Shown in pieces: positions 15,688 through 17,595 of a DNA stretch of 64,000 nt (position 1 is its first letter; every line of letters begins with the position of its first letter). Source of the DNA: Acinetobacter schindleri CIP 107287 (lineage in GTDB: Bacteria > Pseudomonadota > Gammaproteobacteria > Pseudomonadales > Moraxellaceae); the NCBI RefSeq assembly GCF_000368625.1, contig NZ_KB849575.1, positions 737,202-801,201 on the forward strand, in the 5' to 3' direction. A program made the translations under genes and the position numbers. The notes under the pieces were generated by a model. It saw only the letters and a list, made by a program, of their open reading frames with translations, searched no databases and was not told the origin of the DNA.

Positions 15688-16245
15688 ATGAAAATCCAGT
15701 CTCTATCATCAAATCGTGGTTTTACACTCATTGAATTGATGGTGGTGATTGTCATTATGGGAATTCTAGCATCTCTGGTGATGCTGAATATAGGTGGGGT
15801 AGATCAGCGTAAAGCGATGCAGGCACGTGAAGTGTTTATGCTGGATTTACAACGTATTTTACGTGAAGCGAATGATCAGGCTCGGGTGCTCGCCTTGCAG
15901 ACCCAGCCGGCAACGGATGTCAGCCCATTTCAATACACTGTGGTGGAATATCAAAAAAATTCTGCCAATACTGATTTTAGCTTAAGTAGCACATCACAGA
16001 AATGGATTCACTATACTGAATTTAAGACCCAAGCTTTGCCAGATAAAGTATCTTTGCAGGTTCAGCCCTTGGACCAGCGTTATGAAAATGCACAAAACCG
16101 GGATTTGACTATGCAGGATGCGCCAAAATTGATTTGGCTCGGCAATGGGGAAGTGAAGCCGGTACGGATTCAGTTTTATCTTGATAATAATGAAGTCGGT
16201 TCTGCGATTGAAATCGACCACTTGGGTAAAATCAATGAAATTTAA
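15688..16245 (+). CDS. gspH: Type II secretion minor pseudopilin GspH
   Basis: GspH (XcpU) is part of the pseudopilus that drives proteins through the type II secretion outer-membrane channel. The 185-residue protein has a short leader, the prepilin peptidase site RG/FTLIELMVV with glutamate at +5, and a hydrophobic N-terminal helix followed by a GspH-type beta domain. It begins the gspH-I-J-K series. Its last 11 bases overlap the gspI start at 16235. The main T2SS genes (gspC-G and others) are not in the window. Confidence 0.9.
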   Translation: MKIQSLSSNRGFTLIELMVVIVIMGILASLVMLNIGGVDQRKAMQAREVFMLDLQRILREANDQARVLALQTQPATDVSPFQYTVVEYQKNSANTDFSLSSTSQKWIHYTEFKTQALPDKVSLQVQPLDQRYENAQNRDLTMQDAPKLIWLGNGEVKPVRIQFYLDNNEVGSAIEIDHLGKINEI

Positions 16246-16963
16246 ATATTTCAAGCAGAGTGCTGGAGCTGATGCAATCAAGTCATTTAAGGCGAGTGCT
16301 GATCAATTTCATTATGTGTACCTCGAGCATAGCTCTTTATCTTACACAGCGGTGAAGCAGCATTACACTCATCGCAGTTCCTCAAGCACAGCTTTCGGAC
16401 TTTCTTGTGCGACAATGCCGCTCAAGTCGAGTATTGCTCGATTTAATCGTATGCACTCCGAACAGAGTTCGTCATCTTGCGCTCGAACGAAACGTTGTTT
16501 TGTTTATCGCTGCTCCTCAAGCATAGCTTTCGGACTTTCTTGCGCGACGATGCCACTCAGGTCGAGTGTTACTCGACTTAATCGTGCCTCAGGTTTTACT
16601 TTGCTGGAAGTCATGGTCGCACTGGCAATCTTTGCTACCGCAGCCATGGCACTGACTAAAGTGGCAATGCAATATACCCAGTCGACTTCCCATGCCATCT
16701 TACGCACCAAAGCTCAGTTTGTTGCTTTAAATGAAGCAGCACAAATGGAAGTCAATCAGGAATGGCTAACAGGAACTTCATCCCGGCAGATTACCCAGCA
16801 GGGTGAGTCCTGGCAGATTGATAAGAAATCTGAACCAACTATTAGCCCAAATGTACAGCGTGTTGATATTCAGGTCGGTATTGTCGATGCTGATACTGGG
16901 CAACTGGAATCTGGTGTCAGTAGTCTGGTGTTTTTTAATCATCGGGTGAATCAGACACAATGA
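16235..16963 (+). CDS. gspI: Minor pseudopilin GspI with a repeat-filled leader
   Basis: The mature part is an ordinary GspI of about 122 residues: the cleavage motif ASG/FTLLEVMVALAIFA has glutamate at +5 and is followed by a short pseudopilin domain. The start is odd. ATG 16235 overlaps gspH as expected of this operon, but the prepilin glycine is codon 120, where 6-15 is usual. The extra stretch is serine-, alanine- and arginine-rich and contains two near-identical peptide blocks (both with AFGLSCATMPL) encoded by 80-bp direct repeats. An in-frame ATG at 16550, inside the second repeat, would give a normal 15-residue basic leader, but no clear ribosome binding site precedes it. The stop overlaps gspJ as ATGA. 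Identity of the mature domain is sure; the true start is not. Confidence 0.85.
   Translation: MKFKYFKQSAGADAIKSFKASADQFHYVYLEHSSLSYTAVKQHYTHRSSSSTAFGLSCATMPLKSSIARFNRMHSEQSSSSCARTKRCFVYRCSSSIAFGLSCATMPLRSSVTRLNRASGFTLLEVMVALAIFATAAMALTKVAMQYTQSTSHAILRTKAQFVALNEAAQMEVNQEWLTGTSSRQITQQGESWQIDKKSEPTISPNVQRVDIQVGIVDADTGQLESGVSSLVFFNHRVNQTQ
16325..16579 (+). repeat. Array of six short hairpins inside the gspI leader
   Basis: Six inverted repeats with 3-nt loops occur in 255 bases: 16325-16335 (GAGC/GCTC), 16384-16394 (AAGC/GCTT), 16424-16444 (9-bp stem with wobbles around TCGAG/CTCGA), 16459-16471 (CGAAC/GTTCG), 16519-16529 (AAGC/GCTT) and 16559-16579 (GTCGAGT/ACTCGAC core). The sequence before each 80-bp copy is a more diverged version of the same pattern. 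This suggests tandem growth of one palindromic element. The reading frame of gspI stays open throughout. Confidence 0.75.
16371..16450 (+). repeat. 80-bp direct repeat, copy A
   Basis: Aligned without gaps to 16506-16585, 70 of 80 bases are identical. It contains the hairpins at 16384 and 16424. The distance to copy B is 135 bases, a multiple of three, so both copies encode the same peptide frame within gspI. Confidence 0.9.
16506..16585 (+). repeat. 80-bp direct repeat, copy B
   Basis: This is the second copy of the repeat, ending one base before the codons for the prepilin cleavage region (ASGF). It contains a 7-bp perfect stem GTCGAGT/ACTCGAC and the candidate alternative gspI start ATG at 16550. 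Confidence 0.9.
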
Positions 16964-17595
16964 AAAAAAATGGATTTACCCTGGTTGAGCTGCTGGTTGC
17001 GATTGCGATCTTTGCTGTATTGTCTGCATTGGGATGGCAGGTCTTTGATCATATTCGGGTCACGCGCGATCAAAATACCCTTCATGAACAAAAGCTAAAT
17101 CAATTACAGCAGGGCTATCAGCAGATTCTGCGTGATATGGTGCAAACAGTACCCTTAACCGCAAATGTAAATGGTGATATTCAGCCAGCTTTAGTATTGC
17201 AAGATGGTCGTTTTAATTTTAGTAAGACTGGTGTTACGGATCCGCTGGAACAAGGCATCGCGCCGGATGAGCGGGTGGAATATCAATATCGGGCGGATGA
17301 GCAAAAAGTCTATCGGCTTAAATTCAGGAACCTGAACCAGACCGGACGCGATCAACCGGAATCGAGCATATTGCTGAGCGATGTAGAACAGTTTCAAATT
17401 ACTGCACTGAATCCAAATGAAATCACACAATGGCCGGAAAGTGGACTGGATTTAAATCGTACTGAAAACAAGCAGCTTTTACCGAAAGGCATCAAGATCA
17501 ATCTGATTGTACAGGGTGTGCAATATGAATGGTTATTCAGTCTGCTGAACACAGATTATCTGTCAAATAATACCAATAATATAGGCAGCTCATAG
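16960..17595 (+). CDS. gspJ: Type II secretion minor pseudopilin GspJ
   Basis: GspJ (XcpW) joins GspI and GspK in the tip complex of the pseudopilus. The 211-residue protein has a five-residue leader (MKKNG/FTLVELLVAIAIF), glutamate at +5 and the hydrophobic helix, then a GspJ-type domain. Its normal short leader contrasts with that of gspI. The start overlaps the gspI stop by four bases (ATGA), and gspK follows nine bases after its stop. Confidence 0.9.
   Translation: MKKNGFTLVELLVAIAIFAVLSALGWQVFDHIRVTRDQNTLHEQKLNQLQQGYQQILRDMVQTVPLTANVNGDIQPALVLQDGRFNFSKTGVTDPLEQGIAPDERVEYQYRADEQKVYRLKFRNLNQTGRDQPESSILLSDVEQFQITALNPNEITQWPESGLDLNRTENKQLLPKGIKINLIVQGVQYEWLFSLLNTDYLSNNTNNIGSS

Follow-up and report, generated by a model that had tools for sequence, protein, structure and literature searches.

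Palindromic repeats in frame within the leader of the pseudopilin gene gspI of Acinetobacter, a segment that PilD is predicted to remove

How does a pseudopilin gene come to have 119 codons, occupied by palindromic repeats, ahead of the glycine at which its product should be cut? Selfish DNA within bacterial protein genes is rare and is usually ascribed to chance tolerance. Prepilin leaders are cut off after the glycine by a prepilin peptidase, and their length is given as 6–51 residues in the accessible text of PMC6916266. The question is raised by gspI in a stretch of 64,000 nucleotides of an Acinetobacter genome (G000:C5:737202-801201), the whole of which is called the window here. We consider it probable that the gspI leader of the window is an in-frame array of palindromic repeats, which has likely persisted since PilD is predicted to cut the encoded peptide off before assembly. 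Use of the upstream start, cleavage of the GspI of the window and mobility of the repeat are all parts of this reading that we infer from DNA and protein sequences.

The features of the locus are collected in Table 1. The ATG of gspI lies inside the end of gspH, with an overlap of 11 nt, and, as the initial annotation had stated, neither a stop nor a frame break separates it from the cleavage glycine, the frame being open to 16963. The glycine is codon 120, as had also been read correctly, so that the leader comprises 119 codons. GspI has the type IV prepilin motif (glycine, F/T/L, glutamate 5, and a hydrophobic stretch), with PF07963 above its cut-off, and the leader of the adjacent GspH is ordinary, with 9 residues ahead of the glycine. 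Twelve prepilin-type genes of the same genome exceed the PF07963 cut-off; counted from the most upstream ATG, 11 of these have 4–24 codons before the glycine, and gspI alone is expanded. The last 80-bp repeat of gspI contains an in-frame ATG 14 codons upstream of the glycine. Elsewhere in the window, an 18-bp tandem repeat, glycine-rich if translated, occupies positions 7-84.

Table 1. Coordinates of the gsp genes, the gspI leader and its repeat units in the window.
Feature	Position	Strand	Match or remark
gspH (minor pseudopilin)	15688..16245	+	ORF; PF07963; best NCBIfam match TIGR01708 gspH, slightly below cut-off
gspI, 242 codons plus stop, expanded leader	16235..16963	+	T2SSI PF02501 and TIGR01707 gspI, both above cut-off
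gspI leader, 119 codons	16235..16591	+	0 stops; 17 K/R, 4 D/E, 5 H
More diverged family unit	16322..16382	+	Covariance model R1, E 2.8e-6 (G000:C5:753523-753583)
First 80-bp copy	16371..16450	+	
Two-hairpin family unit between the 80-bp copies	16457..16517	+	Covariance model R1, E 1.1e-11 (G000:C5:753658-753718)
Second 80-bp copy, ending beside the cleavage site	16506..16585	+	
Longest perfect hairpin, 7-bp stem, 3-nt loop	16561..16577	+	
Prepilin cleavage glycine codon, then FTLLEV	16592..16594	+	PF07963 match, GspI residues 116-140
gspJ, empty leader (MKKN ahead of the glycine)	16960..17595	+	

The two 80-bp direct repeats that were noticed at the outset are indeed 70/80 identical (10 differences) at a spacing of 135, and 9 of their codons differ, 3 of the 9 synonymously. 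The six hairpins counted at that time were an undercount, as 11 perfect hairpins (3-nt loop, stem of 4 bp or more) lie within 16235-16600, while the mean of 2000 mononucleotide shuffles was 1.4 and none of the shuffles reached 11. Only a weak excess is seen when stems of at least 5 bp are counted (2 hairpins, P ~0.05; when the window is cut into 174 tiles of this size, 16 have as many), and the whole RNA folds in no unusual way (z -1.36). The family hairpin has a 12-pair consensus, in which 7 of 12 positions show compensated pairs with both sides changed. Tandem Repeats Finder gave no report at the gspI leader locus, no terminal inverted repeats were reported there, Rfam gave no match within the window, and the repeat matched none of 72,556 plasmid records at E 1e-5. 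Searching the genome of the window by blastn, the long unit was found in 2 copies, both in gspI, together with three scraps of 14–18 nt, and with the covariance model two units were found in gspI, besides four diverged copies at other places. The array is unlikely to be an assembly artefact, as a GspI of 242 amino acids with a 97% identical leader (P0001) represents a cluster of 78 sequences, built at 90% identity, from another source.

Empty sites, which were to be looked for in relatives, were found by the comparison of gspI. The gene was found in 88 of 99 Acinetobacter genomes, of which 72 fitted the leader motif; the gspH end was located in 71, which were scored, leaving out 16 off-motif genomes and G027, whose leader is empty and whose gspH end was not found. 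All of the 71 scored relatives have the gspI start codon inside a 4-, 11-, or 14-nt overlap with gspH. The leader is empty in 31 of the 71 (4–5 codons, e.g., MKSK or MKAK) and expanded in the other 40 (10–119 codons), that of the window being the longest. With nhmmer (E up to 0.01), family units could be recognised in 32 of these 40. Because the other 8 of 40 lack a recognisable unit under the same threshold, the repeat family does not account for every long gspI leader; these eight (10–50 codons; G012, G013, G021, G028, G033, G038, G042, and G049) may hold diverged copies or have another source. The 16 off-motif genomes, read by eye, comprise 10 with short leaders (4–13 residues), 5 with long leaders, and G086; the long leaders carry units in G022, G070, and G064 and no obvious units in G051 (45) and G093 (21). 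In G086 (G086:C26:16539-17010; L287), gspI has an array, internal stops and no in-frame ATG, and the gene looks decayed. GspI was matched in 62 of 81 Moraxellaceae genomes, and the leader readings cover the genus Acinetobacter.

Leader length varies even where the mature protein hardly does. Among named GspI proteins, those nearest to that of the window are from A. schindleri. GspI sequences whose mature part matches that of the window at 119–121 of 123 positions have leaders of 26, 74, 114, and 119 residues (P0066, P0011, P0002, and P0001, respectively), and the leader of the window has one in-frame 45-codon unit more than the 74-residue GspI type of A. schindleri. In the genome of the window the expansion is local, consisting of this one unit, with no genome-wide burst. 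The units and the empty sites in relatives together support the initial proposal that a palindromic family is present in frame, and has multiplied, in the gspI leader. The gspI tree needs 8 changes between the empty and expanded states, and repeated independent gain was rejected as a conclusion, only 1 of the 8 being forced by well-supported branches. Four genomes (G009, G043, G060, and G023; L010, L012, L013, and L014) have one common 60-residue leader attached to mature gspI parts that are partly different, which hints at an exchange of leader DNA.

The initial annotation had left two outcomes side by side, a very long leader or a changed start. The sequences favour the former, a very long translated leader, and the change of start is less favoured. 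The 37 distinct expanded gspI leaders contain 0 stops in 2086 codons of the gspI frame, and the other five frames have stops in 37, 36, 35, 33, and 35 of the 37 leaders. The net charge is +3 to +14 in all 37. When the junction frame is set by the right-hand CTCA and then the gene, a stop is present in 0 of 29 leader-terminal copies vs. 18 of 44 distinct non-coding copies (Fisher P 3.9e-5; P values are guides only, because the copies are related by descent). The junction analysis kept 90 of 233 model hits, those with a readable CTCA junction and with duplicates removed, and the stop test left out 15 of 59 distinct other copies, namely 3 in gluQRS and 12 within pilin leaders at which the CTCA junction does not set the gene frame; 4 of these 15 have a stop in that unused frame. 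In the alignment, a linker base before TCTTGCGC is present in 15 of 15 leader rows and missing in 8 of 10 intergenic rows, which suggests that loss of this base can put the TAG of the CATAG loop in frame and would explain the non-coding stops.

A start inside the array was weighed against these observations. GspI would then be translated from the ATG in the last repeat, the array would be an untranslated spacer, and the element would have donated the start codon. This ATG does occur in the window, and a start there would place MPLRSSVTRLNRAS ahead of the glycine, an ordinary leader of 13 residues; half of the expanded leaders (20 of 40) have some ATG, GTG, or TTG 5–25 codons before the glycine, in gspG of A. 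nosocomialis GNU001 an ATG precedes the glycine by 5 codons, and the database entries P0041 and P0049 place the GspI start inside the array. It is also considered, in the accessible text of PMC3733652, that many of the N-terminal REPs in genes may be extragenic, with translation possibly starting downstream. However, of the 33 leaders that exceed 25 codons, 24 are without an ATG in the interval 5–25 codons ahead of the glycine, and no purine-rich ribosome site is seen by eye ahead of the internal ATG. A spacer need not be stop-free, yet not one stop occurs in the 2086 in-frame codons, and the leader copies lack the stop found in many non-coding copies. With an internal start, moreover, the open frame back to the overlap with gspH, where the start codon is kept in every scored genome, would lack an explanation. 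We therefore regard the internal start as unlikely, and the translated array is the reading that we follow below.

A single leader conserved among relatives and diverging mainly at synonymous positions was not what we found, as the leaders vary and the pooled pN/pS is 0.73 for leaders vs. 0.08 for mature GspI (15 hand-chosen pairs with shared genomes); the residues of the gspI leader drift almost freely. A conserved protein domain is ruled out by this near-neutral pN/pS and by the variable leader length. Synonymous divergence is 0.25 in the leaders vs. 0.52 in the mature part, a halving that is expected if the leader DNA was recently renewed or exchanged, or if the hairpins are constrained. 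Hairpin constraint would agree with a useful leader or a regulatory RNA, in which the hairpins or the charged peptide control pseudopilin synthesis or membrane insertion, and so would the compensated pairs and the positive charge of every one of the 37 leaders. We nevertheless hold such a function to be improbable, because 31 of the 71 scored genomes do with an empty leader, the leader residues are almost free to change, the RNA fold is unremarkable, and the hairpins belong to the family everywhere, intergenic copies included.

The insertion is not an event specific to gspI, as the family also fills the leaders of other pilin genes. Reading of the sites showed the repeat in frame, with its end at the glycine, in gspG, gspH, gspI, and gspJ, in a FimT/GspH-like gene (PF12019), and in a PilW-like pilin gene (PF16074), with the same orientation, frame and right-hand junction wherever these were read. 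The leaders of gspH, gspI, and gspJ have 107, 71, and 53 codons in A. ihumii and 115, 45, and 46 codons in A. venetianus RAG-1, in which that of GspG has 69. GspG records with the element come from A. nosocomialis (37 residues), A. pittii (49 or 60), A. calcoaceticus (60 and more), and A. baumannii (60 residues, in a cluster of 539). A unit from a relative matched at least 81 of 149 Acinetobacter genomes, a lower bound obtained with at most five candidates scored per genome. These host genes matter beyond secretion, since the loss of XcpV (GspI) or XcpW (GspJ) is reported to lower or abolish natural transformation in A. baumannii W068 (PMC8811193, accessible text).

That the leader copies agree in orientation, frame and right-hand junction would also be expected if the repeat had spread solely between pilin genes, by recombination at their common SGFTL-coding ends, with no mobile family. 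In line with this, the last-unit DNA of gspH, gspI, and gspJ has a higher similarity within genomes (0.49) than between them (0.43; permutation P 0.02, 14 loci), and the last units of gspH and gspI of A. venetianus RAG-1 show a strong likeness (0.93). The within-genome effect, which weakly supports homogenisation of the gspH, gspI, and gspJ repeats, is small, however, and stems from a few of 24 pairs. Recombination between pilin genes would leave unexplained the intergenic and gluQRS copies that have the same right-hand end, and we consider that exclusive route very improbable.

The distribution of the family was surveyed in 12 chosen genomes, mostly known carriers, with a covariance model built from 25 copies and with 150 candidates scored per genome. 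This census gave 103 matches at E up to 1e-3, and 5–30 in each genome when E up to 0.1 was allowed. Pilin leaders account for 24 of the 103 copies and the N-terminus of gluQRS for 3 (the genome of the window, G068, and G017); all of these 27 coding copies are N-terminal, and assorted insertion positions within proteins were not seen. A further 41 copies lie outside any ORF of 120 aa or more, and 21 overlap a gene edge by up to 15 nt, 20 of them at the 3′ end. The remaining 14 lie inside ORFs of 120 aa or more and were read by eye: in 8 cases the ORFs are opened by two repeat arrays, 1 is in a tRNA region, 2 lie opposite the end of argS on the other strand, 2 precede the likely start of a LysR-type regulator, and 1 precedes a small protein. 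No copy was recognised in the body of a non-pilin protein among the 103 copies of the 12 genomes, the 14 ORF-internal ones being judged by eye. The right-hand end CTCA, mostly followed by GG, is common to intergenic, gluQRS and pilin copies. In the Moraxellaceae sample, 31 of 81 genomes, from 5 of 16 genera, gave a match to the covariance model.

Several sites outside the pilin genes were recorded in the course of this survey. In gluQRS (L358, C10:224009-224066 of the genome of the window; L340; L341), the element is in frame directly before SGRFAPSP or CSYIGRFAPSP, and the elements of the genome of the window and of G068 differ by 15 nt. No cleavage is known of GluQRS, a tRNA-modifying enzyme, and its copies are thus a contrast case to the pilin leaders; they show that the cleaved leader is not the sole coding site of the family. 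Reverse-oriented intergenic copies at the 3′ ends of genes supply the last residues and the stop codon, the residues being ERG in 6 of 21 cases (e.g., L090, L302, L303, L310, L316, and L327). Tandem arrays of 4–6 copies, repeating every 58 bp, were found where a cysG-like siroheme synthase gene ends (L077, L078, and L102), and copies at L075 and L099 stand directly ahead of two tandem tRNA-like sequences, ending at the first bases of these.

How would such an array be kept? The repeat would spread among sites by a transposition-like or recombinational route and would land ahead of the glycine codon, where its right end together with GG would yield Ser-Gly. PilD would then discard the repeat-encoded peptide, and the insertion would survive. 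Copy number would subsequently shift by duplication or recombination, by one 135-nt unit in the window, and copies that break the frame or carry a stop would be lost by selection; the scored gspI leaders differ by whole codons. The leader residues would be nearly free, apart from staying hydrophilic and positively charged, because the leader would stay in the cytoplasm and then be discarded.

Processing by PilD has been published for GspG. In A. nosocomialis M2, GspG processing needs PilD, and the theoretical masses of 18,549 and 14,360 Da (PMC4713064, accessible text) imply an M2 leader of about 38 residues; an extra, intermediate GspG band in the pilD mutant of M2 is ascribed to degradation by the authors of that text. 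For the mature GspG of A. nosocomialis GNU001 a mass of 14,360 Da is calculated, and a 37-residue GspG leader with a unit is recorded for A. nosocomialis. The GNU001 gspG leader comprises 49–61 residues by its upstream starts and 5 by its last ATG.

Repeats in prepilin leaders or in type II secretion genes were not described in the titles and abstracts that we searched, subscription papers and preprints being outside this scope; within the same limits, the earlier statement that no case was known in type II secretion genes still stands. The best reading of the sequences is that protein-coding palindromic repeats are tolerated in a segment that PilD should remove. One family is found in one frame and with one junction at the site of several pilin genes that is expected to be discarded, which makes the idea of processing as a refuge directly testable. 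The leaders concerned extend well beyond the lengths in print, and they are relevant to start-codon calls in well-studied species, as in GspG of A. baumannii, A. nosocomialis, and A. pittii. The natural length variants also allow us to ask how much variation is tolerated by membrane targeting and by PilD.

Palindromic elements in coding genes have been described in Rickettsia and others (PMC2229807, PMC3733652, and PMC2996958, in their accessible text). Like the family described here, Rickettsia palindromic elements (RPEs) are palindromic repeats that occur both between genes and, in frame and stop-free, within conserved protein genes (PMC2229807; PMC3733652). The features shared are a hairpin-forming unit, in-frame stop-free copies with empty sites (except in the broken gene of G086) and intergenic copies, and the likeness rests on these features. 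According to the accessible parts of the same sources, RPEs lie at assorted positions in many proteins, which keep the insert, whereas the coding copies found in Acinetobacter are N-terminal only, share a single fixed frame, form stacked arrays and mostly belong to leaders whose cleavage is expected. REPs and REPINs (GTAG- or CGTC-tagged) are also short palindromes by gene ends, some supplying stops and some within genes (PMC3733652, accessible text), but REPs usually exceed 100 copies per genome (PMC2817692, accessible text), and such high copy numbers are absent here, with 5–30 matches per genome. CGTC is present in the linker of many units in our alignment, between both hairpins and not at an end. 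Y1_Tnp (RAYT/IS200-type) genes were found in 11 of 60 Acinetobacter genomes and are missing in the carriers G056, G057, and G059, so that mobilisation by RAYT is not supported. The family is set apart from RPEs by the lack of assorted positions, and from REPs by the lack of a RAYT link and of high copy number.

Among small non-autonomous repeats, a Yersinia MITE with an open frame that is part of a predicted signal peptide (PMC2229807) is the nearest precedent that we met, in the accessible texts, for a repeat lodged in an N-terminal segment that can be removed, but it concerns one locus and not several genes across a genus. MITEAba12 of Acinetobacter has the ends of ISAba12, makes 9-bp duplications and disrupts genes (PMC6382973, accessible text), whereas no insertion-sequence ends with terminal inverted repeats were seen at the gspI leader. 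The leader itself resembles other type IV prepilin leaders, which are hydrophilic and positive and end in glycine, followed by FTLLE and a hydrophobic stretch (PMC6916266, accessible text); it differs from the range given there in having 120 residues with the glycine included, and from such leaders in a repeat content that varies between close relatives. We would give an even chance to the wider view that a mobile palindromic family lives off prepilin processing and that prepilin leaders are a general safe haven for coding selfish DNA. The family might then be, with equal chances for and against, a protein-level counterpart of a self-splicing insertion, which reminds us of the intein: there the insert is removed by splicing, and here a peptidase of the host would do so at the protein level.
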